Of a stretch of 64,000 bases of DNA, positions 4,363-18,630 are shown in pieces. The translations under genes and the position numbers were made by a program. The DNA is from an uncultured Flavobacteriaceae bacterium (GTDB taxonomy: Bacteria; Bacteroidota; Bacteroidia; Flavobacteriales; Flavobacteriaceae), in contig CANNAN010000001.1 of NCBI GenBank assembly GCA_947502635.1, positions 1-64,000 on the forward strand, in the 5' to 3' direction. Position 1 is the first letter of the stretch, and every line of letters starts with the position of its first letter. Below the pieces are notes generated by a model. The model did not search any database and was not told the DNA's origin. It saw only the letters and a program-made list of their open reading frames with translations.

Positions 4363-4803
4363 ATGGCAGAACAAGAACAAGGATACAAAGACTGGAGAGT
4401 TGTCCAATCTATAGAGGTAGGTGCTACCGCCGAAAAAGTATGGGATGTTATCGGAGGTTTTTACACTATTCATGAATGGCACCCCGATATTACAGAACTT
4501 GAGGTCATTAAGGATCAAACAGAAACTCGTCAAATGCGCAGACTGCTTACTTTTCCTGGTCAACCCAAAGCAATCGAAGAATTAGTTATGATGGATAATG
4601 CAGATTTTCATTACCGTTACAAATGGCATGCAGGCGAGTGGGGAGAAGCGATTCACAAATACTATTCAGACTTACGTGTGTTCGATCTAAAAGGCGGCAC
4701 AAGTATCGTACAATGGATTGCTACATTCTATTATAAAGAAGATGCCATTTCTGAGTTTTATCAAAGAGGTTTTGACGAACTGTTAAGACGATTCCCATTG
4801 TAA
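4363..4803 (+). CDS. SRPBCC (START-like) small-molecule binding protein
   Basis: A 146-residue cytoplasmic protein with the helix-grip fold of polyketide cyclase/dehydrase-like SRPBCC proteins. The N-terminal strand is followed by the typical ATAEKVWDVIGGF helix and a GFYTIHEWHPDI stretch, and it ends in the long C-terminal helix. Such proteins bind hydrophobic ligands and some catalyse cyclization or dehydration; no catalytic residue can be assigned here. It sits between a DyP peroxidase and a cupin with short gaps and no terminator, so the three are probably co-transcribed and may act on one small aromatic or lipid substrate. That shared role is inference. Confidence 0.75.
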   Translation: MAEQEQGYKDWRVVQSIEVGATAEKVWDVIGGFYTIHEWHPDITELEVIKDQTETRQMRRLLTFPGQPKAIEELVMMDNADFHYRYKWHAGEWGEAIHKYYSDLRVFDLKGGTSIVQWIATFYYKEDAISEFYQRGFDELLRRFPL

Positions 4804-4833
4804 ATAATTAAAATAACATAAAATAGAAAATCT

Positions 4834-5280
4834 ATGAGTGAAACAATGCTACTTAAACCAAGAGAAGGTCAAAGAACTAAGATCACAGGTTTCGATGCTA
4901 TATATCGAACTTATAAGAGTGTAACAGGCAATTTGCTTGACTATTTTGAATTGGTGGTGCCAGCAGGACAAGGCGCTCCTTTGCACATCCATCATAAAAA
5001 TGATGAGAGCTTGCATGTACTAGCAGGCGATTTTACATTTCAGGTTGAAGAAACCGAATCTAGAGCGCCTACAGGAACATTTCTTTATATTCCAAGAGGG
5101 GTACCTCACAAATTCACAAATATTGGTACTACAGAAGGGCGTTTAATAGGAACCTTTACACCTGCCGGAACTTTTGAGTTTTTCGATAAATTAACGGAAT
5201 TGTCGCAGGACGATTTTGAAGAAATTCAAGCATATTCTAAGAAATATGGCCACGAAGTACTTGAAGCAGGTAACTATTAA
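4834..5280 (+). CDS. cupin-domain protein, quercetinase-like
   Basis: A 148-residue single-domain cupin. The first metal-binding motif is LHIHHKNDE near residues 50-58, followed by the glycine turn LHVLAGDFTF; the second is IPRGVPHKFTN near 88-98. The His-x-His, Glu and His metal ligands are present, so it probably binds Fe, Mn, Ni or Zn. Related proteins are dioxygenases, isomerases or sugar-binding proteins, and the sequence does not separate these. It is the last gene of the DyP/SRPBCC/cupin operon, 30 nt after the SRPBCC gene, and a factor-independent terminator lies about 118 nt beyond its stop. Confidence 0.8.
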   Translation: MSETMLLKPREGQRTKITGFDAIYRTYKSVTGNLLDYFELVVPAGQGAPLHIHHKNDESLHVLAGDFTFQVEETESRAPTGTFLYIPRGVPHKFTNIGTTEGRLIGTFTPAGTFEFFDKLTELSQDDFEEIQAYSKKYGHEVLEAGNY

Positions 5281-5397
5281 TTAATAAGACCTAGTGCTTT
5301 TAACTGGGACCTAGTTTATAAATAGAACAGAGTAACATACTTAGTCTCTTTTTTATATTATAATAAACCGAGTGAGAGATAAAATAAAGTAAGGAAG

Positions 5398-5429
5398 AAC
5401 CAACATACTTATTGTGTGTTGGTTTTTTT
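5398..5429 (+). terminator. factor-independent terminator after the DyP operon
   Basis: An 8-bp perfect stem (AACCAACA at 5398-5405 with TGTTGGTT at 5417-5424) closes an 11-nt loop and runs into a tract of seven T (5423-5429). It lies downstream of the cupin gene in the correct orientation to end the three-gene operon. Confidence 0.8.
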
Positions 5430-6057
5430 CTTAAAATATTTAGTTAGTTTAAAGGGATTTAGCGGTTAGTGTTGCTGTTTTATGCATGGCTCAGTGCAGG
5501 TAATACGGCAATATTTTACATAATATAGATTTATAGCTATCATTTTTTTTATAAATGAATCTTAGTTGTAAATATCATAATTCTGTAACGCGTCCTCTGT
5601 GTTAAGGATCGCTTTATTGACTGTATAAATCCATTTATAAATGCCCTGTAATATTTTGCATTACCTGTAAACCGACAGACTGGTGTAACTTTGATAAAAA
5701 GCTTTTGCCCGTGTTTATTTTCTTTGATTTTTTTCTTTTTAAAAGCTTCTTAAAAATGTAACCCTTTAGGATTCACTAGTGCTTATCTATTAAAGAAGGA
5801 TAGCGAGCGAGTAAATAACTTTGCCCAAAACGATAATTGAAGCTAAGTATGATGTATATGGAATGGTTTGTACATGGTATTTTTCGTGCTGCAACAAAAT
5901 GACCCTCGTAATTAAAAATGATTGCTCAATACAGTTTCTTTTTTAGGTTGGGATATGTTTTAAAAAGGTTTAGATAGGCAAAATTATAAAATGAAGGGCC
6001 TTAAAAACATGTTCACTGTCAAAAAACGTTGATTTTACAATGAGAAAAGAACAAAAC
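5430..6057. other. gene-free stretch, no recognizable content
   Basis: Together with the terminator this makes an 820-bp gap before the E1-like gene. I see no tRNA, no long reading frame with recognizable protein similarity and no insertion-sequence ends. Only weak 8-bp inverted repeats around AAGCTTTT (about 5700 and 5745) stand out. The last 45 bp before the gene hold the regulated promoter described separately. Confidence 0.5.
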
Positions 6058-6103
6058 CTACCCTTTCGAGTAAAGTTTCATACCCAATTACTCACTATTT
6101 TTG
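6058..6103 (+). promoter_or_regulatory. predicted LuxR-regulated promoter of the E1-like gene
   Basis: The box CTACCCTTTCGAGT (6058-6071) starts exactly 38 nt upstream of a perfect TAnnTTTG -7 element, TATTTTTG at 6096-6103. No TTG-type -33 element is found 19-21 nt upstream of the -7 box, as expected if an activator is needed. The same box and spacing recur before the acyltransferase and before the exported-protein operon. A transcript starting just after the -7 box supports translation from the ATG at 6122 rather than from 6101 or 6104. Confidence 0.7.
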
Positions 6104-6121
6104 ATGCAAACCTTATTATAT

Positions 6122-6877
6122 ATGGATACTAGATATAGCAGAAATAGAATATACTTAACAGAAGAAGAGCAAGAAGTAATTAAAAATTGTCCAATAGTAT
6201 TGGGAGGCGCAGGAATTGGAAGTATGATAGCAGAATGTGCATTACGTTTAGGTTTTGAAAACCTAACGATTATAGACGGAGACCAAGTAGAAGTTTCTAA
6301 CCTAAATAGACAAAATTATACCGAAGAAGATATTGCAACCGATAAAGTTAGTGCAATAAAAAAAAGATTATTATCTATTAATAGCAAGGCAAATATAAAA
6401 ACACATAATTGCTTTTTAACGGCAGAAAATGTAGAAGAGTATATTAATGGTCATAAAATTGCTATTAATGCTTTAGATTTCTCTACAGATGTTCCATTAT
6501 TTTTTGATCAAATTTGCCAACAAAAAAACATTCCTGTTTTACACCCATATAATTTAGGTTGGGGCGGGTTAGTTACTATAATTACTCCAAATGGTTTGGC
6601 TTTAAATTCAATAGAAAAACCTCATGAAAAATTTAATGAGGTTAAAATGGTAGAATATGCGTCTAGTTATTTAAAATTTTGGAAAACACCACACGATTGG
6701 ATAGACACTATTATAGAAAAATATAAAGAGGAAAAAGAAGTTTTACCTCCACCTCAGTTATCTATAGCTTCTTGGACAGTAGCAGCCATGTGTGCACACT
6801 TACTTTTTAATATAGCAACAAATAAAAAAATAAAAAAATTCCCCGAATTTTATCTATCCACACTAATGAATGAATAA
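6122..6877 (+). CDS. ThiF/MoeB/HesA-family E1-like adenylyltransferase
   Basis: A cytoplasmic E1-like enzyme of about 251 residues. It has a Rossmann loop (GGAGIGS), the acidic ribose contact in TIIDGDQVEVSNLNRQN, the Arg/Gln of NLNRQ and the DKVSAIKKRL lysine helix, all hallmarks of enzymes that adenylate a carboxylate. The CxxC zinc pairs of MoeB/ThiF are absent and no obvious catalytic cysteine loop is seen, so it may activate a small molecule or peptide C-terminus without thioester transfer. In-frame TTG at 6101 and ATG at 6104 also exist, but they overlap the -7 box, so ATG 6122 is preferred. It converges with the LuxR gene with no gap, and its promoter matches the two divergent-side operons. 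Confidence 0.8.
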   Translation: MDTRYSRNRIYLTEEEQEVIKNCPIVLGGAGIGSMIAECALRLGFENLTIIDGDQVEVSNLNRQNYTEEDIATDKVSAIKKRLLSINSKANIKTHNCFLTAENVEEYINGHKIAINALDFSTDVPLFFDQICQQKNIPVLHPYNLGWGGLVTIITPNGLALNSIEKPHEKFNEVKMVEYASSYLKFWKTPHDWIDTIIEKYKEEKEVLPPPQLSIASWTVAAMCAHLLFNIATNKKIKKFPEFYLSTLMNE

Positions 6878-7636
6878 TTAAATCAATTTATTATTAGTTG
6901 CATAGGCAATAGCTTCAGAAATATTTGCGACATCTAATTTTTCAAACATTTTTTTTCTGTGAAACTTAACCGTATCAGGCGAAACAAAAATAGCTTCTGC
7001 TACTTCATTTATAGTGTAACCTCTGGTGGAGTATTGTAGAATTTCTTTTTCTCTGCTGGTCAATTTTATAACTTCTGTTTCTCTCCAAAAATCACCATCT
7101 AAATCGTAATTAAAAAGTTTGTTATCCCCTTTCTTATAAATCTTAATATTACCAGATTTGCTTTCGGCAGAAAGGGATATAATACAAATAGCCTTCCATA
7201 TTTTACCATCATTTGTTAAGAATAAAGGGGTTAGTTTTTGATTGATTAAAATCTTTTTACCTTCTTGATTCTTTAAATGATAATCGTAAGATATTGTATA
7301 ATTCTTTCTCTCTTCTAATGGTATTTTTTCATAAAAATCGAATCCAACTGTATTTATTTTTAGAAGAAGATTTAAATCTGGTTCTATAACATATTTAAAA
7401 TAGAAAGCATACCCCATTTCTTTTATTTCTTCGGCAGTATGCCCACATAAAAACAGTGGATTATCTGAAACATATTCAAACCCCTTTTCTTGATAGTCTA
7501 TGACATAAATACTCTTATAAGTAGTTCTGGCAAAGGCCTCTATTGGCTCTAAATAATTGGCAGTCTGGTTTTGCTCATCGTTAGAAATATTATTAACGAT
7601 GTTTTTAAAAGAGAAAAAGTCATTTATATCAGACAT
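6878..7636 (-). CDS. LuxR-type (NarL/FixJ HTH) transcriptional regulator with PAS-like sensor domain
   Basis: A 252-residue regulator. Residues about 35-165 resemble a PAS sensor fold (YVIDYQEKGFEYVSDNPLF then a long helical and strand region). The C-terminal LuxR-type HTH occupies about 190-250 (LTSREKEILQYSTRGYTINE, then a SPDTVKFHRKKMFEKL recognition helix). There is no response-regulator phosphorylation domain and no canonical acyl-homoserine-lactone-binding domain, so the PAS part presumably senses a ligand directly. It is divergent from the LuxI/FeeM-like acyltransferase and converges with the E1-like gene. It is the natural candidate to bind the repeated CTACYYTTTNGWGT boxes. That assignment is inferred from location and dyad shape. 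Confidence 0.85.
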   Translation of the reverse strand: MSDINDFFSFKNIVNNISNDEQNQTANYLEPIEAFARTTYKSIYVIDYQEKGFEYVSDNPLFLCGHTAEEIKEMGYAFYFKYVIEPDLNLLLKINTVGFDFYEKIPLEERKNYTISYDYHLKNQEGKKILINQKLTPLFLTNDGKIWKAICIISLSAESKSGNIKIYKKGDNKLFNYDLDGDFWRETEVIKLTSREKEILQYSTRGYTINEVAEAIFVSPDTVKFHRKKMFEKLDVANISEAIAYATNNKLI

Positions 7637-7642
7637 ATCTTA

Positions 7643-7650
7643 CAAATATA
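7643..7650 (-). promoter_or_regulatory. possible -7 box of the luxR-type gene
   Basis: On the minus strand this reads TATATTTG, a perfect TAnnTTTG, six bases before the ATG at 7636, which implies a leaderless or very short-leader transcript. The upstream box copy at 7666-7679 would overlap its -33 region, a layout compatible with autoregulation. Confidence 0.4.
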
Positions 7651-7664
7651 GTGTTTTTTAATAT

Positions 7665-7680
7665 ACTACCCTTTTGTGTG
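7665..7680 (+). promoter_or_regulatory. upstream copy of the regulator box in the divergent promoter
   Basis: CTACCCTTTTGTGT at 7666-7679 is a direct repeat of the box at 7705-7718, differing at one base and offset by 39 bp. It has no -7 element 38 nt downstream, so it may be an auxiliary site for the acyltransferase promoter or an operator for the divergent regulator gene. Confidence 0.55.
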
Positions 7681-7704
7681 GTTTTTTTGGTAATTAGCTC
7701 ATTA

Positions 7705-7750
7705 CTACCTTTTTGTGTAATAACACTGGTAGGGTATCTAAATAGATTTG
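7705..7750 (+). promoter_or_regulatory. predicted LuxR-regulated promoter of the acyltransferase gene
   Basis: The box CTACCTTTTTGTGT (7705-7718) begins exactly 38 nt before the perfect -7 element TAGATTTG (7743-7750). No TTG lies at the -33 position. The ATG follows 19 nt after the -7 box. Geometry and sequence match the promoters at 6058 and 8441. Confidence 0.7.
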
Positions 7751-7769
7751 TGAACAAAACATACCATAT

Positions 7770-8456
7770 ATGACACTCGCAAACAACTATTTAGAAAAAC
7801 TTCAAGCAAATCAAATATTTGATTTAGCAGAATTTGTTGTAACAGAAAATTTCAAACATCATTCAAATAATAGTTTACCTAAAGACTACAAAAATGATGT
7901 TAATTCTATTCATAAAGAAGAGATGAGTTATTATGAAAATTCTGAAGTTTATACCGCTAAAGATCATTTGGGATCTATTTTGGGTGCTATTCGTGTTTTA
8001 AAATGGAATTATACAGATGTTTTACCGCTTCAAAAGATTTTTAATATTAATCCTCTTCTGGCGATTAACAAACCCAACATAAATAATATTTACCATATAG
8101 GACGCTTTGCCATAAAAAAAGATGTACAGGGTATTAATTTGTTTAAACAATTAATGGTTTGTGCCATTGCACCTATTTGCAAACACACTGGAAATATAGC
8201 TTTTGCCGAATGCGACAGCAAACTATTAAGAGTACTTCACATGCTTGGTATAAAAACGACTGTTATAGGTGAGTCTGTTAACTATTTAGGCTCTGAAACA
8301 ATACCAATAGCATTAACCTACGAAGGGTTAATTGATTTTTATAATGAAAATAAGGCTTTAGTTTCTAAGGATGCTTTAAAGCCTCAAGTGAAATCTCATA
8401 GACTACCTAAAAGGGTAGTTTTCAATACGAAACAAAAGGACTACTCTTTAGTGTAG
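7770..8456 (+). CDS. LuxI/FeeM-like GNAT-fold N-acyltransferase
   Basis: A 228-residue cytoplasmic protein that resembles the autoinducer-synthase-like branch of the GNAT superfamily (N-acyl amino acid synthase FeeM, LuxI). Features: an acidic start of a central strand with LGSILGAIRVLKW (about 70-82), the characteristic strand and turn YHIGRFAIKKDVQG (about 109-122), a helix LFKQLMVCAI, then FAECDSKLLRVLHMLGIKT (about 150-168) and a C-terminal strand. Family members transfer an acyl chain from acyl-CoA or acyl-ACP to an amine such as an amino acid. It is divergent from a LuxR-type regulator, which recalls a signal synthase/receptor pair. Canonical acyl-homoserine-lactone chemistry cannot be claimed. 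The fold call is moderately sure; the product is unknown. Confidence 0.6.
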   Translation: MTLANNYLEKLQANQIFDLAEFVVTENFKHHSNNSLPKDYKNDVNSIHKEEMSYYENSEVYTAKDHLGSILGAIRVLKWNYTDVLPLQKIFNINPLLAINKPNINNIYHIGRFAIKKDVQGINLFKQLMVCAIAPICKHTGNIAFAECDSKLLRVLHMLGIKTTVIGESVNYLGSETIPIALTYEGLIDFYNENKALVSKDALKPQVKSHRLPKRVVFNTKQKDYSLV

Positions 8457-8486
8457 CATAAATAAAGTGCCGAGTATATACTTTTG
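8441..8486 (+). promoter_or_regulatory. predicted LuxR-regulated promoter of the exported-protein/HTTM/DCC operon
   Basis: The box CTACTCTTTAGTGT (8441-8454, continuing AG to make the dyad CTAC-N8-GTAG) overlaps the end of the acyltransferase gene. It starts exactly 38 nt before the perfect -7 element TACTTTTG (8479-8486). The leader to the first gene would be about 90 nt. This is the third instance of the same spacing in 2.4 kb. Confidence 0.7.
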
Positions 8487-8580
8487 AAGTAATAAAAATA
8501 ATTTGTTGCAACATAATTCAGGCGGATACTGAAAAGCCTTAAAATAGAGTAAGTAATTTAAACTATAAAAACCTTTAATT

Positions 8581-8955
8581 ATGAAAACTAGAATTTTTTT
8601 ACCAGTATTTACAATGTTAAGTTTAATGTTATTGTCTTTCACTACAAACAGTGAAGCAAAGGATAACGAATCTATTGAAGTTTCCGAAAACGGAACCTAC
8701 TATATGCAAAAAGCGACATTTGATGAAAGTGATCAAGAACAATTAATCCAATTGGACAAATTTTTTGTTAACAATGCAAATTCGGCCGAATTAAGACTAA
8801 CTATTAGCCGTGTAAGATCATGGAACCATAAAGATTTTACCGAAAAATCATTCATCGTTACAGATAGATACAATCCTGCAATTGTAAAGGAAGGGCTTGT
8901 TAGAGAATACCGTGAAAAGTTAGATAATATTATGTTTAGATATGTAAGACAATAG
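8581..8955 (+). CDS. small secreted protein of unknown function
   Basis: A 124-residue protein with a clear N-terminal signal sequence (basic MKTR, a hydrophobic core to about residue 22, then SEAKD as a likely cleavage region), leaving a mature part of about 98 residues, rich in charged residues and without cysteine. I recognise no domain. It is the first gene of an operon with an unknown membrane-anchored protein (41 nt gap), an HTTM protein and a DCC protein, under the predicted LuxR-type promoter. It could be a substrate or partner of the HTTM/DCC pair; that is inference from position only. Confidence 0.7.
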   Translation: MKTRIFLPVFTMLSLMLLSFTTNSEAKDNESIEVSENGTYYMQKATFDESDQEQLIQLDKFFVNNANSAELRLTISRVRSWNHKDFTEKSFIVTDRYNPAIVKEGLVREYREKLDNIMFRYVRQ

Positions 8956-8995
8956 TCTTCAATTTGTTACAAGTAATCATAAAAAAGCTAAAACT

Positions 8996-9589
8996 ATGAA
9001 AATACGTTTTTTAACAGCTACTTTTTTATGTTCTTCCATAGTAACCATTCAACTATTATGCCTCGTGTTTGTAAACACTTACCAGTTGGTTGATGGTTAC
9101 TATGTAACAAATAATAGAAAAGAAGAATGTAAAAACGATAAGTTCCTTCAAGCGGGGAATAAGATATTAACCTCAGGTTTATACAAATTGTATACTAATT
9201 ATACAGGAACAAACTCTGGGTATGGTTTTTACGGTCCAAATGTTGGAAGTGAGTTTATTTTATCATTCACAGTATTAGACAGTGATAACAAAGTGTTAGG
9301 AAAACACCGTCGTCCTTCAACAATAATACAGAATGAAAGTAAACAAAGATTCGATTTATGTACCTACCCAATGATGTTAAGGATTGAACAAGAAAATAAA
9401 AATAAAATACTAGATGATTATTTTGAAGTTCTACTACATCAAATCTCAGAAAAAATAAATAACGAATACGATTCAGGTTATAAAGTTATTGCTGAGATCT
9501 TTTTACATGATTTTCCAGACATTGAAAACTCTTCAAAAGGAGAGCAAGAAGGCTTCAAAATTTTGGAACGTTATAAATTCACTTTTTAA
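8996..9589 (+). CDS. membrane-anchored periplasmic protein paired with HTTM; SdpA-like by position
   Basis: A 197-residue protein with one N-terminal membrane helix (about 5-30) followed by a soluble region presumed to be periplasmic. A conspicuous segment near residues 66-88 (YTNYTGTNSGYGFYGPNVGS) looks like a conserved core. Two cysteines lie in the N-terminal helix, one just after it, and one in FDLCTYP. It is followed 11 nt later by an HTTM protein. In the Bacillus Sdp toxin system a small anchored protein, SdpA, similarly pairs with the HTTM-family protein SdpB. The sequence is not clearly SdpA, so the similarity is of arrangement rather than proven homology. Confidence 0.65.
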   Translation: MKIRFLTATFLCSSIVTIQLLCLVFVNTYQLVDGYYVTNNRKEECKNDKFLQAGNKILTSGLYKLYTNYTGTNSGYGFYGPNVGSEFILSFTVLDSDNKVLGKHRRPSTIIQNESKQRFDLCTYPMMLRIEQENKNKILDDYFEVLLHQISEKINNEYDSGYKVIAEIFLHDFPDIENSSKGEQEGFKILERYKFTF

Positions 9590-9600
9590 AACTATTAGCC

Positions 9601-10572
9601 ATGTCAGTACTAAAAAAAATAAAAGAAAAAATTCATACTTTTTTCTTTGCAGAAGATACCACCAAAGGCGCATTCCTTACTTATTTTAGAATAGGTACAA
9701 GTCTGTTTGTTCTTATCCATCTTTTAAGTATTATTTTAGATTTTAAAGATCTGTATAGCAAAAATGGCATTGTACCTTACGATGTTAGAGAATTTCTAGC
9801 CTCTAAATATGTGTTTCCAATTCACAAAATAATTTTCTTTTTTGAAGATTTAGGATGGCAAGAAAACACCATTCTAACAGGATTTATATTAACATTTATA
9901 TTTTTCTTATTGGCTTTAATGACTGGGTTTTTTACCCGATTTTCGGCTATAGTAGTGCTCTTTTTGTATGGATCTATCTCTAGTACTTCCTATATTTATG
10001 GTGTAGATGGATTTGTTACAACGGCATTATTCTACTTAATTATTTTTCCAGTAGGTTATTTCAATTCTATTGACAATCTATTATTTAAAAACAGAAAGCG
10101 GGGAAATCTTAATGTAACATTATTTAAGCGGTTATTTCAAATTAATATATGTCTTGTATATTTTTTTGGTGGTCTTGTTAAAATGACGGGAGATACCTGG
10201 TGGAATGGCGAAGCAGTATGGAAGGCTATGAATTTATGGAGTGCAAATAGTATTTTTAATTTTGATTATACATGGCTGGCAGAAAACTCATATATACTAG
10301 TAATTTTAGGCTGGGGCGTTTTAATTATAGAAACACTCTATCCAATCTTTATCTGGAGTTCCAGAACCCGAAAAATATGGCTTACAGGAACATTGTTTAT
10401 GCATATAGGAATAGGATTATTTCTAGACTTATATTTCTTTGCTGCCTTTATGATGTTTTGGAATATGACAGCTTTTTATATCACAAAACCAATTGCGACT
10501 AACGAACTTATTCCAAGTTTCAATTTTCTAAAGAGAAAAAGAATTTCACAAGAAGTAACATTAGAAATTTAA
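9601..10572 (+). CDS. HTTM-domain multipass membrane protein
   Basis: A 323-residue integral membrane protein with several hydrophobic helices. It carries the HTTM (vitamin K-dependent gamma-carboxylase-like) core: YFRIGTSLFVLIHL near residue 28 and the hallmark FFGGLVKMTGDTWWNGEAVW near 188-207, followed by LFMHIGIGLF. The family includes the gamma-carboxylase and the bacterial SdpB protein needed to mature a peptide toxin. It lies between a membrane-anchored unknown and a DCC thiol oxidoreductase with 11- and 6-nt gaps, so tight co-expression is very likely. HTTM and DCC genes often occur together. Catalytic activity and substrate are unknown. Confidence 0.85.
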   Translation: MSVLKKIKEKIHTFFFAEDTTKGAFLTYFRIGTSLFVLIHLLSIILDFKDLYSKNGIVPYDVREFLASKYVFPIHKIIFFFEDLGWQENTILTGFILTFIFFLLALMTGFFTRFSAIVVLFLYGSISSTSYIYGVDGFVTTALFYLIIFPVGYFNSIDNLLFKNRKRGNLNVTLFKRLFQINICLVYFFGGLVKMTGDTWWNGEAVWKAMNLWSANSIFNFDYTWLAENSYILVILGWGVLIIETLYPIFIWSSRTRKIWLTGTLFMHIGIGLFLDLYFFAAFMMFWNMTAFYITKPIATNELIPSFNFLKRKRISQEVTLEI

Positions 10573-10578
10573 AATGTT

Positions 10579-10983
10579 ATGTGGCATCAACTTTTAGAAA
10601 CACATGTACTAATTATGTATGATGGAACTTGTGGTTTTTGTAATGAATACATTCAATTTATTTTAAACAGAAACCCTTCACGGAAACTTAAATTTGTGTC
10701 CTCACAATCAGAAATAGGAAAAGAAATCATACAATCACTATCAATTAAAGGTTTTGAAACCTCTATCATTGTGGTTACAGGGCAAGAGTATTACAAAAAA
10801 TCGAAAGCGGTTTTCATTATTATGAAATATCTTGGAAAACCTTGGAAATATGTAGCGTATTTGCAAATTATTCCAACATTCGTAACAGCTATTTTTTACA
10901 ACATATTATCAAAATACCGATACAAATTAGCAGGCAAATATTGTCGGTTAATTTCTAAAGAAGAGCAGGCATTCTTTCTTTAA
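10579..10983 (+). CDS. DCC-family thiol-disulfide oxidoreductase (DUF393)
   Basis: A 134-residue thioredoxin-like protein of the DCC family. The defining motif appears as YDGTCGFCN at about residues 14-22, with the CxxC redox pair Cys18/Cys21; the rest matches the family length, ending with a YRYKLAGKYCR segment. It follows the HTTM gene by 6 nt, so its ATG at 10579 is probably translationally coupled. The pairing suggests that it supplies or relays electrons for the membrane enzyme or handles thiols of the exported proteins. There is no clear terminator before the next gene, which has its own 126-nt leader. Confidence 0.85.
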   Translation: MWHQLLETHVLIMYDGTCGFCNEYIQFILNRNPSRKLKFVSSQSEIGKEIIQSLSIKGFETSIIVVTGQEYYKKSKAVFIIMKYLGKPWKYVAYLQIIPTFVTAIFYNILSKYRYKLAGKYCRLISKEEQAFFL

Positions 10984-11109
10984 ACAGCATCATTTTACAA
11001 CAAATTTAGGACCTTATTTATAAAATAACAACAGCTTATTTTATGGCATTTATATGTCATTATTTGTCTGCTAAAGAGATCGTGTAATTACTATAAAGAA
11101 CCATTTATA

Positions 11110-13764
11110 ATGAAAAAGTATGCCCTAATACCATATTGCTTACTTTTTGTGCAGCTTGCTTTTGCACAAAATGTATTGTATGAAATAAAAGGGGCCGTAA
11201 ACGGTGTTATGGATAGTATTCCTTTAGAGTCTGCAACCGTTTATTTACAAAACACGAAAGACAATAGTTTAATTACCTATACCACTTCAGATAGAAAAGG
11301 CGCTTTTATCTTGAGCGGTAAAACCACACATAAAAACGCGAACCTTTTTATCTCTTACGTTGGGAGTAAAACATATACAAAAACCATAGCGATTAAAGCA
11401 AAAACAGATCTAAAACGAATCTACCTTGAAAACAGTTCCATGTTAGATGCCGTTACCATTACCTCCAGATTGCCCGTTATTATAAAACAAGATACTTTAG
11501 AGTTCGATCCCAATGCTTTTAAAACCAAAAAAGAAGCATCGGTAGAAGATTTTATAAAAAAACTGCCAGGTGCAGAGGTTGATGCTCAAGGAAATATTGC
11601 AATTAATGGGAAAGTGGTCAATAAAATATTGGTAAATGGAAAACCTTTTTTTTCAAACGATCCTACAATAGCAACACAAAACCTAACCAAAGATATTATA
11701 GAAAAATTACAAGTTACAGATACCAAAACAAACTCGGAAGCTTTTACGGGAGAAGCTGGTAATGGCGACTATAAAACAATTAATCTTGTTATAAAAGAAG
11801 AGCACAATAAAGGAGCCTTTGGAAACCTGGCAGCAGGAATAGGAGATAATGATCGGTATGAGTTTTCGGGAATATATAACAAATTTAATAACGATAAAAA
11901 CATTAGTTTTTTAAGTAATGGGAATAATATAAATGCTCCAAGAATTAATTTTGGAACTAAAGGTATTACGGTTTCAAAAAAAGCAGGAATGACCTATGCC
12001 GATGAAATAGCAAAAAACCATTTTTTAGGTATAAACTATGTCTATGCAGATCGTTTGTTTGAAAATAAATTAATAGCATCAACAGAATATATCGTTCCAG
12101 AGGCACCTTATGTCTTAAATGCAGTCTCAACTTCTAAAACAGAAAGTAGTAGGCATGGTCTTGATTTAGAGCATCAGGTTAAAATAAGTGCAACATGCCA
12201 TTTGGATGTAATTGCTACATACAATTATTCATCAACAGAAAGCCTGTATAACAGTGACTCAGAAACATTTGATGCCTTTAATACACTCACAAATTCATCA
12301 ACCACAAACTCCAATAATACAGAAAAAGCCAAGGAATTTACAAATGCCATAGATTTCACTAAAAAACTAGGAACTAAAGGGGCTTTTGTAAAATTAAAAT
12401 TAGGTTATGGAATACATCATTTAGAAGGGGATGATTTTTTAGTTTCAGAAATTTCATTTTTCAATTCTTCGACAGCAGATATTTTTAGAAATCAATTTAC
12501 AGATACCAATGAAAAAGAAAATTCTATAACAACAAGGCTCCTTTTTAGATTGCCCATTATAACACAAAAAGTATTTGTAGACTTTGAGTACGATATTTAC
12601 AAACGCCAACAAGAAAGTCATAAAATTGTTTTCGATTTTAATCAAGATCAACAAGCCTACACACTATTTAATACACCATTAAGCTCCGATTTTACTTATA
12701 AAAATAAAACAGAGACTCCTAGAGTAAAATTAAATTATAAGAATAAAAAGCTTAGAGTATTTGTTAACTTTAATTATGCTTTTAAAACATTAGAAAATCA
12801 AGATAAACTTCGCCCTGATTTAGATATAAAACGCGATTTTGGAATCTTTACATACGAAAGTGGCATTTATTATAAATTAAGTAACAGAACTCTCATTAAT
12901 AGTGGAATAAGTTTAGCAAACGCCATTCCATCGTTATCCCAACTACAATCCTTTACCAATGTTTCAGACCCACTTAATATAATACGGGGAAACCCTAATT
13001 TAAGACCTCAAAATAAATATAGTATTTACCTTAATTTTAGAACAAATAATTTTAAAAAAGGATTTGGATTTTATAGCCTGCTAAAGGCAGATTTAGAGCG
13101 TAATACAGTCGCCTCTAAATACACAATTACAGACAATTTAATTCGGGAAACAACATATTTAAATGTTAATGGTAATTACGGATATCATAGTTTTTTTAAC
13201 CTATACAAAAACATCAAGTTAGATGCGTTGAGAAAAATACGTATTAAATTAGATGGCGCTATAAGTACCACAAAACGGGTAAATTTTAATAACGACACCC
13301 AATACCATGTGCGAACAACCAATTATGGGCCCTCATTTGGTTTTGATTTTGAATGGGAGAATACGTTCGATTTTAATATGGATTATAACTGGAATTACAT
13401 AAAAAGTAATTATTCCATTGATGGTTTCGAGGATGAAGAAATTATTACCCACCAATTAAATTTTTATACCGAAACTCAAATATTAGAAAACCTGCGGTGG
13501 GAAAATAAAATGAGATACATATACAATCCAAATGTCTCTGATAATTTCGATAAGCATGCTTGGTCGTGGAATACTTCGTTAACATATAGTTTTATGAAAG
13601 AAAAGCTTAATCTGTCTTTAAAAATGTATAATGTCTTAGATCAAAATATAAATACACGACGTATTGTGACCACAGATTATATTAAAAACTCACAAAATTT
13701 AGCTTTACAGCGTTTTATAATGCTTACCCTTGGTTGGCGATTTAATTCTTTTAAAAAGAAATAA
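11110..13764 (+). CDS. outer-membrane beta-barrel receptor with carboxypeptidase-regulatory-like N-terminal domain
   Basis: An 884-residue outer-membrane protein of the TonB-dependent receptor type common in Bacteroidota. It has a signal peptide (cleavage after LAFAQ), a beta-sandwich regulatory-like domain (about 22-105), a plug-like region (about 112-215, with VEDFIKKLPGAEVDAQGNIA and KILVNGKPFF) and a long beta-strand barrel ending in a TLGWRFNSFKKK tail. No SusD partner adjoins it, so it is unlikely to be a glycan PUL importer; a peptide, metal or small-molecule role is possible. It lies 127 nt after the DCC gene without the regulator box, so it is probably a separate unit. Confidence 0.8.
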   Translation: MKKYALIPYCLLFVQLAFAQNVLYEIKGAVNGVMDSIPLESATVYLQNTKDNSLITYTTSDRKGAFILSGKTTHKNANLFISYVGSKTYTKTIAIKAKTDLKRIYLENSSMLDAVTITSRLPVIIKQDTLEFDPNAFKTKKEASVEDFIKKLPGAEVDAQGNIAINGKVVNKILVNGKPFFSNDPTIATQNLTKDIIEKLQVTDTKTNSEAFTGEAGNGDYKTINLVIKEEHNKGAFGNLAAGIGDNDRYEFSGIYNKFNNDKNISFLSNGNNINAPRINFGTKGITVSKKAGMTYADEIAKNHFLGINYVYADRLFENKLIASTEYIVPEAPYVLNAVSTSKTESSRHGLDLEHQVKISATCHLDVIATYNYSSTESLYNSDSETFDAFNTLTNSSTTNSNNTEKAKEFTNAIDFTKKLGTKGAFVKLKLGYGIHHLEGDDFLVSEISFFNSSTADIFRNQFTDTNEKENSITTRLLFRLPIITQKVFVDFEYDIYKRQQESHKIVFDFNQDQQAYTLFNTPLSSDFTYKNKTETPRVKLNYKNKKLRVFVNFNYAFKTLENQDKLRPDLDIKRDFGIFTYESGIYYKLSNRTLINSGISLANAIPSLSQLQSFTNVSDPLNIIRGNPNLRPQNKYSIYLNFRTNNFKKGFGFYSLLKADLERNTVASKYTITDNLIRETTYLNVNGNYGYHSFFNLYKNIKLDALRKIRIKLDGAISTTKRVNFNNDTQYHVRTTNYGPSFGFDFEWENTFDFNMDYNWNYIKSNYSIDGFEDEEIITHQLNFYTETQILENLRWENKMRYIYNPNVSDNFDKHAWSWNTSLTYSFMKEKLNLSLKMYNVLDQNINTRRIVTTDYIKNSQNLALQRFIMLTLGWRFNSFKKK

Positions 13765-14288
13765 AAGTATTGCAGCTCTTCTTATTTTATTCTCAAAATG
13801 TTTCTTTAAAATGTGATGAATATTTTTTTTGCTGAAAAGGCAGCAGGAGATGGACAAAATATCAATAAAATAGGATTCTTTATTCTAATATTTAGACTCT
13901 TTAGTAGGTAGCAACCATTCTCTAATATCCACATCCAAAATTTTCGCAATACGCTTTAAATCTTTTAAATGTGGTTGTGATTTATACAAATTTATACATT
14001 TGAAAAATAAAGTTGAAAATATTTTCATCGTTCTAACTTATAATAACATTGTTGCAAACGATATAAATATAACTTCAAAGAATATCGTGGAAATATGGGG
14101 GTTGATTCTATCATTGATTTTAGTTAATTTTGAATATACCACAAAGAATAAATAGACTAAAAGAGGTGCTTTTTATTAAGAGAATAAGTCAAAAAAATGA
14201 CTTCCAAATTAGATAGAAATCCTAGGTTACTTCAATGTGTCATAATAAATCACAGTAATATAATAATTGGTTTAATCAATATTTTAAT
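13765..14288. other. gene-poor gap at the left edge of an accessory island
   Basis: This 524-bp gap holds only the broken XRE-like reading frame described separately (13885-14028, minus) and AT-rich sequence. No tRNA, terminator or transposase end is evident. Confidence 0.5.
13885..14028 (-). pseudogene. truncated XRE-type helix-turn-helix remnant
   Basis: A 47-codon frame on the minus strand from ATG at 14028 to TAG at 13885. Its last 30 residues (SQPHLKDLKRIAKILDVDI, then REWLLPTK) look exactly like the C-terminal half of a phage or plasmid-type XRE DNA-binding domain, whereas the first 16 residues do not form the expected first helices. The frame therefore looks like the tail of a regulator whose start was lost. 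Such remnants are common at integration sites. It may be non-functional; expression cannot be judged. Confidence 0.55.
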
Positions 14289-14594
14289 ATGAAAAACGAG
14301 CAATTAATAATTAGCCTTATACTGCAAGATCTTAAACATAATCAGTTATTATTAGGACTAGAGAAGATAGGTTTAAATGTTAATGATACACACTATTTAA
14401 GCATCTTAGAGGTTGTTTTTCAATTAATGAAAGTTCCAGAACAAACACTGGATGATTGTGGCGCATTGTACTTAAATTTTATGGATCAGGCTATTCAATA
14501 TAAAATGTCCGATACAATTAAACAAGACACATTAAAACCTTTAGCAGAAGTTTGTTATAGGCAATTGAGGGGTTTGATAGATATGGAGTATTGA
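14289..14594 (+). CDS. small protein of unknown function
   Basis: A 101-residue, largely helical, leucine-rich cytoplasmic protein with no signal peptide, membrane segment or motif that I recognise. Two cysteines (in DDCGALYL and EVCYRQ) are not in a metal-binding arrangement. It stands alone between an XRE remnant and a GIY-YIG gene, nearly 200 nt from the latter, and its coding quality is ordinary for the region. No function is proposed. Confidence 0.55.
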   Translation: MKNEQLIISLILQDLKHNQLLLGLEKIGLNVNDTHYLSILEVVFQLMKVPEQTLDDCGALYLNFMDQAIQYKMSDTIKQDTLKPLAEVCYRQLRGLIDMEY

Positions 14595-14791
14595 ATTGTG
14601 TTATGATGTTGTGTGTTATATTATGTAACTTGAACTTCTGTAAAAGCGAAAGTTGTTACTATCGTTTCTTGAAAAAATTATCTCCAAAAGTTTCTTAACT
14701 ATCTTAATGGAACACTTTTATGCGATGATGTAGGAAGGAAGTATAATGTGTGTGAAATGACAAATTGAGCGAAGAGTTTTAATCATTTTTA

Positions 14792-15250
14792 ATGAATTAC
14801 TTAAGACATATACTTTCTAATGGCTATCTACATCTTGATGAGGTAATATATATATTATTTTGCGAGAATGATAAGTTTTATGTGGGACATACAACGAACT
14901 TTGAAAGTCGATTAAAATATGGTCATTTTGGAAAAGTCAGTAATAGGAATTATTTTCTTAGGTTAAACCCACCTATAGATGTATTATTTTTTATTAGAAC
15001 AGGTATTACACACAGTGATCATAGTATTAATATTCATGATTTAGAAGATTATGTAACCGTGATATTTAGTGAAAAGTATGGTGCAGAAAACGTGTTTGGT
15101 GGTTTCAGACACCTAAAGAGAGCAGATAGAAGAATAAAATTTGTTGAGGAGTATGACTATTCTACTAATGAGCAGACAATAAATTTAATTGACCTACTGA
15201 TTGATTTCGAATTGCCTGAAATATTCGAAATTAAAAATAATATTTTATAG
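14792..15250 (+). CDS. GIY-YIG nuclease-fold protein
   Basis: A 152-residue protein. Its N-terminal part matches the GIY-YIG fold: VIYILFCENDKFYVGHTTNF (about 18-37) supplies the first strand (VIYIL for GIY), the second (FYVG for YIG) and the following helix with Arg41 in the position typical of the catalytic arginine. An acidic helix with DLEDYV follows. Proteins of this size act as structure-specific or homing nucleases, or serve in restriction. It lies directly upstream of the long palindrome and the QueC/OGG operon, but is 253 nt away and probably transcribed separately. Activity is not proven because the motif is a variant. Confidence 0.6.
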   Translation: MNYLRHILSNGYLHLDEVIYILFCENDKFYVGHTTNFESRLKYGHFGKVSNRNYFLRLNPPIDVLFFIRTGITHSDHSINIHDLEDYVTVIFSEKYGAENVFGGFRHLKRADRRIKFVEEYDYSTNEQTINLIDLLIDFELPEIFEIKNNIL

Positions 15251-15298
15251 TTTTCAAAAAAGGATAAACACTTTTTCTACAACGACGTAGAGGGGACG

Positions 15299-15337
15299 CG
15301 TAAATGTTTGAAATTAACTTAATTTCAAATATTTACG
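15299..15337. repeat. 17-bp-arm palindrome between the GIY-YIG gene and the QueC/OGG operon
   Basis: The left arm CGTAAATGTTTGAAATT (15299-15315) and the right arm AATTTCAAATATTTACG (15321-15337) pair over 17 bp with a single G-U-compatible mismatch around a 5-nt loop (AACTT). No T-tract follows on the plus strand, so it is a poor terminator. It may be a regulator site, a boundary of the island or a structured leader element. Confidence 0.75.
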
Positions 15338-15503
15338 GTTTACCTTTAAATTAATTCCTACAAAATTTACTATATTTAAACTCTCCCTATTAAAGTAATT
15401 AGTAGTAGAAGTAAATTGGTTCATAAAATAATTAGTTCTATGAATATTTTTTCGCTAGCAAATAAATCATTTAATATTTTTAATAAATAAAAATTATATA
15501 ATT

Positions 15504-15878
15504 ATGGGTAGTAGTGGTTCAGGAAATTTTTCAGATTATTCTGAGAATAAACCATCAGGTGGAAGTGGGAAATCTGGAGGAGCAAGTGACGAAAATAAAT
15601 GCGAGAAGGCTTTTACAGCTATGTTAGAAGAAATAGATAGATGTTCTTATTATACTAAAACAAAGGATGTTCCAAAAGTAGGAGAGGAAATCAATATCTC
15701 TTTTGATAAAAGACCGATAGCCATCTCTAAAAAAGGCTTAATAATTGGATATCTACCAACAAAATTTAATTATATAAAAATGTGTCTAGATGATGGATAT
15801 ACTTATGTAGGAAGAGTTGTTAGTTCTTCTAGTGATTTGGTAGCAGCCGTGAGTATTGATGTTATACCTAGTCATTAA
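15504..15878 (+). CDS. small Gly/Ser-rich protein with N-terminal Met-Gly; candidate conjugation substrate of the QueC-like enzyme
   Basis: A 124-residue protein starting MGSSGSGNFSDY, followed by a flexible Gly/Ser/Lys linker to about residue 28 and a compact C-terminal domain (about 32-124, from NKCEKAF). Removal of the initiator Met would expose Gly2. From memory, in Qat and type IV CBASS systems QueC-like proteins attach a deazaguanine to the N-terminal glycine of a partner with this kind of tail; I could not check this here. The gene is first in the operon and its stop overlaps the next start by one base (TAATG). It is therefore the likely substrate or carrier. The C-terminal domain itself is unrecognised. 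Confidence 0.75.
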   Translation: MGSSGSGNFSDYSENKPSGGSGKSGGASDENKCEKAFTAMLEEIDRCSYYTKTKDVPKVGEEINISFDKRPIAISKKGLIIGYLPTKFNYIKMCLDDGYTYVGRVVSSSSDLVAAVSIDVIPSH

Positions 15879-17191
15879 TGAAACCAGAAATTTGTATTCT
15901 TGGAGATATTGTTACTGACATAACTTTACCCCAAAATGAAAATGAAATAAAAATACGCTTGGGGGGCATAACTCATTCGGCTAGAGGTTTATGGGCAATT
16001 AATTTTAACTATGGCGCCTGTTTTATTGCACCATCATATTTGTCTAAAGAAATTAATAAATTTTATAGCCATCACAATGCAAACGAAATTCATCAACTAG
16101 GTATTGTTAATGGGGCACCATATACATTTTTAATTGGTAGTGTTAAAGAAACTGGAGATCAGCTATACGATTTCATATTAAGAGATCAAATAGAGATAGA
16201 GTATAATGCGAAAAATTTAAAAAACATTAATGGATATAAAGAAGTATTAATTACCTCTGGGAATTTTGATCTAAATTTAATTTTAAAAGAAATAAATCAA
16301 AAAAGCAACGTTCATATTGATTTAAGTAATAATATATCTAAATTTTCGCAATTGGACGGGTATTATTATAAAACCATATTTTTATCAACATCTTCAAATC
16401 TATTTCTTGATTATTATAAAGATTCATTTAAAGAATTTTGTGATTTATTTGAAAAAAGATGTAGTGTTTTAGTACTCAAAGAAAATAGAGGAGGTTCAAG
16501 AATTTATGATTTTGAGAATAAGAAAGAATATCAAATACCATCAATTACTCAGCCCATAGTACATTCGGTTGGCCTAGGTGATGTATACAATGCTTGCTAT
16601 GTAGCTTACTACAAGAAGTTAGGTGTTGAGAAAGCTGCTTTTTTATCTTCTTGGATTGCTTGTGAGTATGCTTCAACAACTTTTCCAGATGATTTTAAGA
16701 AAAATGTATCGAGAGTTTTAAATACAAAAATAGAAGATATAATTTCTATGGGAGGATGTATTTTACCTTGGGAAAACAGAAAATTATATCCTATTTATAT
16801 TGCTGCTCCTGATTTTGATTATTTAGATACAACACAAATCGAAACTCTTGTGAAATCTTTGCAGTATCATAATTTTCATCCAAGGAGACCAATAAAAGAG
16901 AATGGGCAATTATCTCTTGAAAACACGAAGGAGGATAGAATTGAAACTTATACAAATGATATTGAATTAATTAAAAAGTGTAAACTATTAATAGTTGTTT
17001 ATATTAATGATGACCCAGGTACTATGATTGAATTAGGATATGCTAAAGCTTTAGGTGTGCCTTGTTTAGTTTTTGACCCTTATAACAAAGCTTATAATTG
17101 TATACTGACTGAAATGCCAGAAACTGTTTCATCAGATTTAGATGTTATTATCTCTGAAGTTTTTAATGAATTATCAAAATTAAATGAATAA
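15878..17191 (+). CDS. PfkB-like kinase fused to nucleoside 2-deoxyribosyltransferase-like domain
   Basis: A 437-residue two-domain protein. Residues 1 to about 275 are a PfkB/ribokinase fold: ILGDIVTDITLP at the start, then the anion-hole and catalytic loop HSVGLGD with Asp235 as the presumed base (usual family form DTTGAGD). Residues about 298-437 match nucleoside 2-deoxyribosyltransferases: YPIYIAAPDFDY, an acidic helix, then DPGTMIELGYAKALGVPCLVF with catalytic Glu385. Such domains cleave or exchange the base of (deoxy)nucleosides or nucleotides; kinase plus base-exchange suggests phosphorylation of a nucleoside followed by base release or swap. Start and stop overlap both neighbours (1 and 8 nt), so expression is coupled. 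Confidence 0.8.
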   Translation: MKPEICILGDIVTDITLPQNENEIKIRLGGITHSARGLWAINFNYGACFIAPSYLSKEINKFYSHHNANEIHQLGIVNGAPYTFLIGSVKETGDQLYDFILRDQIEIEYNAKNLKNINGYKEVLITSGNFDLNLILKEINQKSNVHIDLSNNISKFSQLDGYYYKTIFLSTSSNLFLDYYKDSFKEFCDLFEKRCSVLVLKENRGGSRIYDFENKKEYQIPSITQPIVHSVGLGDVYNACYVAYYKKLGVEKAAFLSSWIACEYASTTFPDDFKKNVSRVLNTKIEDIISMGGCILPWENRKLYPIYIAAPDFDYLDTTQIETLVKSLQYHNFHPRRPIKENGQLSLENTKEDRIETYTNDIELIKKCKLLIVVYINDDPGTMIELGYAKALGVPCLVFDPYNKAYNCILTEMPETVSSDLDVIISEVFNELSKLNE

Positions 17192-17801
17192 TAAAGTAAT
17201 TTTACTTGCCTCTGGGGGGTTAGACTCTACAACAATGGCATATTGGTTATTAGATAAAGGGATAGATTTTATTCCTTTATTTATAAAATATGGTCAACAT
17301 TGTGTTGATACAGAACTTGAAACTCTAAAAAGTGTTTTGCCAAAAACATACATAGATAAGATTGAAATCATAGACATTAGTAGTGTTTATAAATATTCTA
17401 ACAGCAAATTTATAAATGAAGCAAACTTATGGGAAGAAGAAATTACTGCTGATGACTTGTACATTCCATATAGAAATATATTAATCCTTACATTAGCGGC
17501 ATCTTTTGCTCAATCTTTAAAAATAAATGAAGTTTATTCAGCTTTTATAAATAGTAATCACGCCAAAGAAATAGATTGTTCAAAAGAATTTTTTTCTAGA
17601 ATGGAAATGATGTTAGGAGAATATGGAGCGATAAAAATTAAAATGCCTTTTTTAGAAATGACAAAATTTGAAGTGGCACAAATAGGAATAAAAGTCAAGG
17701 CACCAATAGGAAAAACATTTTCTTGTCAAGCTTCATCAGAAATACCTTGTGGAGCTTGTCCAAATTGTGTTGATAGATTAGAAGCATTAAATAATTTATA
17801 A
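17184..17801 (+). CDS. QueC-like 7-cyano-7-deazaguanine synthase homologue
   Basis: A 205-residue PP-loop ATPase of the QueC family. The ATP-binding SGGLDSTT lies near residues 10-17 and YIPYRNILILTLAASFAQ near 93-110. Near the C-terminus a zinc tetrad reads FSCQ, then CGACPNC (C-x7-C-x2-C-x2-C), as in QueC. Canonical QueC adenylates 7-carboxy-7-deazaguanine and makes preQ0. No queD, queE, queF or folE is nearby, so a housekeeping queuosine role is unlikely. Position after a Met-Gly Gly/Ser-rich protein instead suggests a QatC/Cap9-like role, joining a deazaguanine to a protein N-terminus. It overlaps the preceding gene by 8 nt. Confidence 0.85.
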   Translation: MNNKVILLASGGLDSTTMAYWLLDKGIDFIPLFIKYGQHCVDTELETLKSVLPKTYIDKIEIIDISSVYKYSNSKFINEANLWEEEITADDLYIPYRNILILTLAASFAQSLKINEVYSAFINSNHAKEIDCSKEFFSRMEMMLGEYGAIKIKMPFLEMTKFEVAQIGIKVKAPIGKTFSCQASSEIPCGACPNCVDRLEALNNL

Positions 17802-17814
17802 AAACGTTAATACT

Positions 17815-18471
17815 TTGCAAATAGTTGTAGAATCAGCGAGAAATTTAGTTGAATATATTAAATCTTTAGATGAACTATCTTTAAATCATCATAGAAGAAA
17901 TTCAGGATATACCCATATTGGAGCTTTATTTACTGATATTATTTTGCAAGCAGGATTAAATTACAAAAATGTTGTTAGGCCTCGTGTTGAAAAGATGATG
18001 TCAGATTTTCCTGAAGCAGATAATCTTGAGAATTTAAAATTTATAATTAATAAATATAGTCTTGAAAATATTTTAAGTTGGAAGCACCCTGTTAAACTTG
18101 AAAGATTTAATGATTTAATAAAATTTTGTTCAGATAGAAATATTAATAATTGTGACGATCTTACTGTCTTTTTAAGACATAAAGATAATAGAATTTTGTT
18201 TTTATCTGTAAAAGGTTTAGGTCCTAAAACACTAGATTATACAATGAAATTGCTCAATTTTGATACTATAGCTGTAGATAGGCACATAATTGGCTTTATT
18301 GAATCAGCAGGTTTAAATCATATAAATTATAATTACACAAAAAAAATAGTAGAGTTTGCTGCTGATTTATTAAATGTTTCTAGATCTTCATTGGATGAAA
18401 CTATTTGGTATTATATGTCTTCTAAAAATATTGACTCAATTGATACTACCCAGTTTGAAATGAAGCTTTAG
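17815..18471 (+). CDS. HhH-GPD DNA glycosylase/AP lyase, OGG-like
   Basis: A 218-residue protein of the helix-hairpin-helix glycosylase superfamily. The hairpin and active site read VKGLGPKTLDY with Lys138 at the position of the OGG1 Schiff-base lysine, and AVDRHI supplies the catalytic Asp155. The four-Cys iron-sulfur cluster of EndoIII is absent. The family removes damaged or modified bases such as 8-oxoguanine. Start is TTG at 17815: no in-frame ATG exists between the upstream stop at 17788 and residue 61, which is too far inside. It lies 13 nt after the QueC-like gene. OGG-like genes also accompany QueC-like genes in type IV CBASS, where I recall them as Cap11. Confidence 0.8.
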   Translation: MQIVVESARNLVEYIKSLDELSLNHHRRNSGYTHIGALFTDIILQAGLNYKNVVRPRVEKMMSDFPEADNLENLKFIINKYSLENILSWKHPVKLERFNDLIKFCSDRNINNCDDLTVFLRHKDNRILFLSVKGLGPKTLDYTMKLLNFDTIAVDRHIIGFIESAGLNHINYNYTKKIVEFAADLLNVSRSSLDETIWYYMSSKNIDSIDTTQFEMKL

Positions 18472-18553
18472 GATTACTTTTTAACTTTATAAATTTTGGT
18501 GAAACAATAGGTGAGTGAAGCGTGCATATTTTAGAGGTTTAGTATTAAAAATT

Positions 18554-18606
18554 ATTAAGATTTATAATTATACTATAGCTTTAAAGCAATCTTAATGAGT
18601 TATAAT
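18554..18606. repeat. inverted repeat between convergent QueC/OGG operon and photolyase operon
   Basis: ATTAAGATT (18554-18562) pairs perfectly with AATCTTAAT (18598-18606); the 35-nt loop contains the self-complementary GCTTTAAAGC. Its position between two convergent operons would suit a bidirectional terminator or an island boundary, but a strong T-tract is missing. Confidence 0.4.
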
Positions 18607-18630
18607 GTTTCCAAAATCATACTATTTTAA

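Follow-up and report, generated by a model that had tools for sequence, protein, structure and literature searches.

Positions 15,504 to 18,471 of the analysed stretch (64,000 nucleotides (nt) of an uncultured Flavobacteriaceae bacterium, contig CANNAN010000001.1; hereafter the window) carry a compact operon of four genes that encode, in order, a small protein with a glycine-rich N-terminus, a PfkB-type kinase fused to a nucleoside 2-deoxyribosyltransferase (NDT), a QueC-like PP-loop enzyme and an OGG-like HhH glycosylase/lyase. With moderate confidence, we read this operon as a mobile QueC-type system for conjugation to a protein N-terminus, most likely in anti-phage defence. The reading draws on a conserved gene order, intact catalytic residues, an invariant N-terminus in the small protein, a HIRAN-like fold in the model of that protein, and the mutual exclusion of NDT and tRNA-guanine transglycosylase (TGT) in the few sister operons seen. 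The four tightly packed open reading frames (ORFs) lie where the first-pass annotation of this DNA had placed them (Table 1), with a 1-nt overlap, an 8-nt overlap and a 13-nt gap at their junctions as computed from the ORF coordinates; the exact start of the OGG-like ORF is uncertain because it is listed with a TTG start.

We scanned 84,980 species genomes with the PfkB-NDT alignment as the sole seed and obtained 53 genome loci, in hosts that the record titles name as species of Bacteroidota and Pseudomonadota. All four genes are present in the same order in 50 of these 53 loci and in 11 of the 13 loci that PfkB-NDT by itself located on viral contigs, and the median intergenic distances across loci are -1, -4 and +14 nt. 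Among the incomplete loci, L051, L062 and L064 are each cut by a contig end; in L054, a disrupted locus, the PfkB-NDT match reaches only residue 343, and QueC and OGG were not found there; in L007 (8311-8571) the QueC frame stops after 87 amino acids (aa). The next ORF after this L007 frame falls in one cluster with a transposase-like ORF, and the arrangement looks like an insertion. The small protein is present in 52/53 genome loci, the exception (L051) being cut at its start. Matrices of pairwise distances for 40 systems correlate at r 0.91-0.96 among PfkB-NDT, QueC and OGG and at r 0.69-0.82 between the small protein and the three enzymes. A tblastn search of plasmid records located the PfkB-NDT protein in five records, and the three loci that were read out (Proteus, Cupriavidus and Neotabrizicola) carry these four genes in this order; two of the five records (NZ_OL790811.1 and NZ_OL790812.1, Proteus, ~4.08 Mb, filed as plasmids) are probably chromosomes. 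The operon is rare, occurring in 1/60 relatives by QueC search and in 2/395 Bacteroidota genomes by PfkB-NDT search.

The first-pass annotation had proposed that the four genes belong together, a proposal that a lack of conserved co-occurrence in other genomes would contradict; because they co-occur in fixed order, this objection falls away. Chance co-location was ruled out by the recurrence of the complete operon across the genome loci, and a conserved fifth gene was ruled out since no family of flanking ORFs is seen in more than 8 loci. The co-location of the four genes is more than chance and is kept in two bacterial phyla. Residue counts given below refer to 43 non-redundant systems (< 90% QueC identity, window included; L005, L007, L072 and L073 left out).

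The QueC-like protein matches Pfam PF06508 (E 3.9e-38) and the PADLOC QueC model (E 1.2e-29). Against the PDB its top match is Cap9 of the type IV cyclic oligonucleotide-based anti-phage signalling system (CBASS; E 2.5e-13), followed by Bacillus subtilis QueC (E 3.8e-8) and then Escherichia coli QueC, so the nearest among solved chains is the one that the earlier likening to type IV CBASS would predict. The P-loop (SGGxDS), Tyr36, Gln38, Glu44, Arg97 and Lys161 are invariant in the 43 systems and the four zinc-type cysteines occur in 43, 42, 43 and 42 of them, the window protein having the signature C(x)7CxxCxxC (sequence SCQASSEIPCGACPNC); the intact P-loop and cysteine tetrad described beforehand are thus present and conserved across relatives. 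The window protein also has the YxQ(x)5E spacing given for Cap9 (sections of PMC13329287).

The base pocket departs from that of canonical QueC. Glu129 of an EIDC motif stands in place of the tyrosine of YPDC in 43/43 systems, with Asp131 and the cysteine retained, whereas the tyrosine is present in 5/5 usable canonical QueC sequences (nine were compared, of which four were not usably extracted). In Cap9 that tyrosine stacks on the base and the aspartate reads its Watson-Crick edge (sections of PMC13279940). Since the aspartate is kept and the tyrosine lost, the pocket suggests a substrate that is guanine-like yet different. Assignment as a canonical QueC (preQ0 synthase) was ruled out, as the window protein scores 112 bits against the TIGR00364 equivalog, below its cut-off of 150.3.

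Host genomes bear on the same question. We searched 50 operon-bearing genomes using PF06508 and a 13-sequence QueE profile (L038, L039, L054 and L056 of the 53 genome loci were left out), with cut-offs of E < 1e-50 for canonical QueC and E < 1e-38 for full-length QueE that we set at gaps in the match lists. Canonical QueC was found in 23/50 genomes and full-length QueE in 30/50; neither was found in 16/50, a search that a divergent QueE or salvage could escape. By record titles, six of these 16 hosts are metagenome-assembled genomes or uncultured, and ten are named isolates (Pleomorphomonas, Aminobacter, Alterinioella, Stappia, Cohaesibacter, Albimonas, Defluviimonas, Paracoccus, Cypionkella and Sediminimonas). 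These 16 hosts make it probable that 7-carboxy-7-deazaguanine is not the base in every case. The window's own host genome has a QueE-like gene (C8:5408-5986) and two PTPS genes (C3:7037 and C13:40104), and a second QueC besides that of the operon was not found in it. Ten other Bacteroidota hosts, like the window host, have QueE without canonical QueC.

The proposed acceptor is the small protein, for which we found two features new relative to the first-pass annotation, a conserved N-terminal tail and a HIRAN-like fold. The N-terminal consensus is MGS[ST]GSG..DY, and Gly2, Asp11 and Tyr12 each occur in 42/42 non-redundant relatives; mean pairwise identity is 0.77 for residues 1-12, 0.41 for the linker (residues 13-32) and 0.44 for the domain. 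In the AlphaFold2 (AF2) model the tail is disordered and residues 34-123 are folded, with a predicted local distance difference test score (pLDDT) > 90 over most of them. Foldseek rows 1-16 for this domain are HLTF HIRAN (12) and Lactobacillus lp_0118 (3k2y; 4), at E 2.1e-3 to 1.8e-2, probability 1.00 and template modelling (TM) score ~0.5-0.6; the following row has probability 0.11. These matches, weak by E-value yet of full probability, give the small protein a HIRAN-like fold, and it is probably DNA-binding. It shares the predicted fold with HLTF HIRAN but differs in sequence (8-12% identity in the HLTF rows), in having no helicase attached and in its glycine-rich N-terminal tail. A profile search of the PDB gave an S-layer chain as sole match, none of whose stretches is significant alone. 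A link between QueC and HIRAN was not found in the open PMC literature.

The earlier description of a small MGSSGSG-type protein therefore stands for the glycine-rich N-terminus, and it missed the HIRAN-like fold. The resemblance then drawn to a QatB-type glycine-rich partner is upheld, the invariant MG(S) terminus on a disordered tail being comparable to MGTS in QatB and MGGS in CdnD; in CBASS the acceptor is Gly2 (sections of PMC13279940). An N-terminus that is to be modified would need just this, strong conservation at the tip of a disordered tail. A small, glycine-rich, precursor-like tail could also belong to a peptide-nucleotide natural product made from the small protein in the manner of a ribosomally synthesised and post-translationally modified peptide, an explanation that the nitroreductase-family gene of some sister operons would fit; we hold it to be very improbable, as the protein has a conserved folded domain and neither a transporter nor a protease is among the four genes.

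The second gene was correctly called as a PfkB kinase fused to an NDT, the kinase being recognised by fold and the NDT by Pfam. The NDT part matches PF05014 (E 1.9e-15) and its Asp379, Thr382 and Glu385 are present in 43/43 systems, which gives it both the family match and the catalytic Asp/Glu motif. The PfkB part of the window protein was not detected by Pfam; its AF2 model (pLDDT 93) matches ketohexokinase/ribokinase (E 3e-14), and the aspartate of GxGD (Asp235) is present in 43/43 systems, so that both the ribokinase fold and the GxGD aspartate are in place. The retained NDT residues would also suit a different division of labour, in which modification of the HIRAN protein by QueC serves as a switch and killing is done by the NDT as a nucleotide or NAD+ hydrolase, similar to the NDT-like effector of retron Eco1, restrained until the HIRAN protein reports infection. 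Eco1 has a standalone NDT-like effector and that retron hydrolyses NAD+ (sections of PMC12405507), and TIR proteins take part in sister operons. The fused kinase, whose GxGD aspartate is intact in every system, suggests substrate metabolism and not a bare toxin, however, and the TIR-type sister operons lose the NDT motif yet keep PfkB; we regard an NDT effector as unlikely, if worth weighing.

PfkB-NDT has been noted beside a QueC family before. It adjoins ~89% of QueC cluster 4 and was there read as purine salvage (Libby et al. 2026, sections of PMC13329287). The claim that the operon is undescribed is for this reason not quite right: its PfkB-NDT neighbour is shared with this related cluster, and what stands is that a named system with the four components was not found in the available part of the open PMC literature. 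For cluster 4, the sections and term searches of PMC13329287 turned up neither a small protein nor OGG, and a role in defence was likewise absent. Membership of the window QueC in cluster 4 was ruled out, as it has C(x)7CxxCxxC and lacks the cluster signature CH(x)5CxxCxGCxK (sections of PMC13329287), which 8/9 of the plasmid-type sister loci described below match. Salvage of purines or deazapurines by the window operon has that published reading behind it, and both PfkB and NDT domains occur in nucleoside metabolism, but it sits poorly with a HIRAN-like small protein of invariant N-terminus in nearly all genome loci, with the mobile, sparse distribution and TIR sister operons, and with the differing signature, and we consider it improbable.

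The OGG-like protein of the window has no Pfam match. It matches PRK01229 (E 2e-4) and the OGG proteins of sister operons (hhalign 96.6%), three of which, among those scanned, are matched by Pfam Ogg-HhH; Lys138 and Asp155 are present in 42/42 non-redundant relatives. It thus has the HhH and the catalytic Lys/Asp of the OGG/HhH-GPD family, as was first proposed. Since OGG-like and NDT enzymes both act on N-glycosidic bonds, and since the small protein has a HIRAN-like fold and DNA adenine methylase genes lie near several plasmid-type sister operons, the operon could instead modify nucleic acid, making a modified base and putting it into DNA or removing it (OGG excision, NDT exchange, the small protein as DNA-binding subunit, Dpd-like). 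The operon has no TGT or DpdA-like gene, and such a role leaves the invariant disordered N-terminus and the MGGG tail of the TIR proteins unexplained; we give it a low probability.

The operon resembles two known systems and belongs to neither. By Pfam and PADLOC, none of CD-NTase, TGT-like, ATPase and TatD genes is among the four, as stated beforehand. With type IV CBASS it shares a QueC-family enzyme nearest Cap9 and a partner with an MG-type N-terminus. OGG is also an ancillary gene of type IV CBASS, and an OGG-like gene would be a third shared component; a search of the open PMC literature found no paper that places OGG in type IV CBASS. The window operon differs in having no CD-NTase or TGT (Cap10), in having an NDT fused to a kinase, in bearing the tail on a HIRAN-like protein, and in EIDC against YxDC, the Tyr/Asp deazaguanine pocket being Glu129/Asp131 throughout; membership was ruled out on the missing CD-NTase, the missing TGT-like Cap10 and the missing Tyr/Asp pocket. 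With qatABCD it shares a QueC-family enzyme, a partner whose conserved MG N-terminus lies on a long disordered tail (MGTS in QatB, MGS here), and a departure at the base-pocket tyrosine (Glu/Asp here, Thr/Thr in QatC). It differs in that the QueC has 205 aa without the QatC extensions and the partner is HIRAN-like where QatB has a helical domain, and membership was ruled out as neither the QatA ATPase nor the QatD TatD nuclease is among the four genes.

Further sister loci were reached through PfkB proteins of the Haloarcula and Rhizobium types. The plasmid type (nine loci: L005 and L129-L136) has the small protein, PfkB-NDT and QueC, with an OGG-like gene nearby in 5/9 loci (L129-L133). In L129, L131, L132 and L133 a nitroreductase-family gene follows QueC, two being called by Pfam (one score over the cut-off and one just below) and two by eye. 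Several plasmid-type operons also have dGTPase, Mrr-like or DNA adenine methylase genes close by. The plasmid-type small proteins are homologous to that of the window (hhalign 96.9%, six sequences), and the residue after Met is Ser in 7/9, Gly in 1/9 and Cys in 1/9. Chemistry on an N-terminal Ser is conceivable in the nitroreductase-bearing operons, where the terminus is Met-Ser. The haloarchaeal small proteins (L005:6844-7476 and L136:4345-5001) look like the domain twice in tandem.

The TIR type, on rhizobial plasmids, encodes PfkB, a TIR-TGT fusion, OGG, QueC and a TIR protein with MGGG at its start (Table 1); in L072 this last protein matches ThsB_TIR (E 9e-26). The TGT is under the Pfam cut-off in L072 and over it in L137, and both match PADLOC TGT. 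A QueC tree (midpoint rooting; four of fifteen canonical QueC not usably extracted) places the window type (17 sequences, support 0.89), plasmid type (9, 1.0), TIR type (2, 1.0) and canonical QueC (11, 0.87) in four separate groups. The NDT motif is lost in 3/3 TIR-type PfkB proteins, whose operons have a TGT domain, and kept in 12/12 other aligned PfkB-NDT proteins. The proposal that the deoxyribosyltransferase replaces TGT as base exchanger gains support from this exclusion in a few sister operons (15 proteins).

The genomic setting is that of variable cargo. In the window genus, the spot between the helicase-like and photolyase genes spans 16.0 kb in the window and 0.3, 2.1, 4.3, 9.6, 10.2 and 11.2 kb in six relatives fetched, with different cargo; in 2/4 relatives scanned this cargo includes candidate defence genes of PADLOC PDC-S06. 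Elsewhere the operon neighbours phage capsid, tail, DUF6441 and integrase genes, HsdR, AAA_15 with PIN, and AbiEii genes, and, by likeness, AriA-, PtuA-, dGTPase- and CBASS cyclase-like genes. PADLOC model matches number 170 among 150 neighbour ORFs (of 248) and 45 among 122 control ORFs (of 148, taken from 20 stretches elsewhere in these genomes). Mobility, sparse distribution and a variable chromosomal spot are suggestive of an anti-phage role.

Several results weigh against the conjugation and defence reading. The neighbour excess is only suggestive because PADLOC models are redundant; no defence family occurs in > 5 neighbour ORFs, and the control too held a type I restriction-modification locus. 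There were zero matches among 50,697 phage records. Of the four proteins, PADLOC recognised QueC alone and left the small protein, PfkB-NDT and OGG unrecognised. The HIRAN assignment comes from fold, none of the Foldseek matches being at E 1e-3 or better; Pfam gave no match for the small protein, and its sequence profile matched no HIRAN chain in the PDB. Not every sister type keeps Gly2, since Ser or Cys follows Met in 8/9 plasmid-type proteins, and deazaguanine is still possible in 30/50 hosts, the window's included, because full-length QueE is present.

Under the conjugation reading, we infer the chemistry, the sensing of infection and the protection against phage as follows. Met1 of the small protein would be removed to expose Gly2, as in CdnD. 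With ATP, the QueC-like enzyme would activate a guanine-like base at its carboxyl or some other leaving position and couple the base to the amine of Gly2, following the precedent of Cap9 and CdnD; the base is probably other than 7-carboxy-7-deazaguanine, because the stacking tyrosine is replaced by glutamate and many hosts seem unable to make that compound. PfkB-NDT, as sugar/nucleoside kinase and base exchanger, would supply the base or else convert the protein-bound base to a nucleoside or nucleotide, and would take the place that TGT (Cap10) has in type IV CBASS. The HIRAN domain, judging by its fold, could sense DNA ends made in infection and bring the tagged protein there, and the OGG-like glycosylase/lyase may act on DNA at that site or remove the tag, which is the weakest step. 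A more specific form of this scheme, which we hold to be quite unlikely, has a non-deazaguanine base ligated to Gly2, NDT adding a (deoxy)ribose and PfkB a phosphate, so that the DNA-end sensor, bearing a nucleotide at its N-terminus, would become linked to replicating phage DNA or block it, and the OGG-like lyase would resolve the junction. In that picture a single modular chemistry of QueC conjugation would have TIR and CD-NTase systems among its other outputs, and either TGT or NDT could serve as the base exchanger.

In 2025-2026, QueC-family enzymes were reported to conjugate nucleobases to N-termini in type IV CBASS, and the same was proposed for Qat; the window operon would be a compact, widespread third design. 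Its gene content suggests a rule (a tailed partner protein, a QueC, a base exchanger that is either TGT or NDT, and often OGG), and the altered pocket together with the QueE-less hosts points to a new base. Two questions become testable, namely the ligand of QueC-like enzymes without the tyrosine pocket and the role of the glycosylases and base exchangers.

Table 1. Coordinates of the operon, its domains and motifs, and related loci (window positions unless a locus is named)
Feature	Coordinates	Strand	Basis or remark
Small protein, 124 aa	15504..15878	+	Disordered Gly-rich tail, HIRAN-like domain; proposed substrate of the QueC-like enzyme
Small protein residues 1-12, motif MGSSGSGNFSDY	15504..15539	+	Alignment of relatives
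HIRAN-like domain, residues 34-123	15603..15872	+	AF2 model, Foldseek
PfkB-type kinase fused to NDT, 437 aa	15878..17191	+	
PfkB/ribokinase-fold part, residues ~1-300	15878..16777	+	Fold match, GxGD Asp235
NDT domain, residues 306-408	16793..17101	+	Pfam, Asp379/Thr382/Glu385
QueC-like PP-loop enzyme, 205 aa	17184..17801	+	
EIDC, codons 129-132 of the QueC-like gene (canonical YPDC)	17568..17579	+	
Zinc-type Cys tetrad, QueC-like residues 181-195	17724..17768	+	
OGG-like HhH glycosylase/lyase, 218 aa	17815..18471	+	Lys138, Asp155
Variable spot holding the operon	2607..18630	.	Between helicase-like gene (165-2606) and photolyase gene (18631-19935)
TIR-type sister operons	L072:2703-7065; L137:5001-9395; L138:5001-9401		

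Two other ORFs of the variable spot were noted in the window. An ORF with a GIY-YIG domain (PF01541, E 1.3e-7) lies just upstream of the operon at 14792-15250, and a ThiF/E1-like protein, matched by PADLOC E1-E2 models (E 3e-16), is encoded at 6101-6877.

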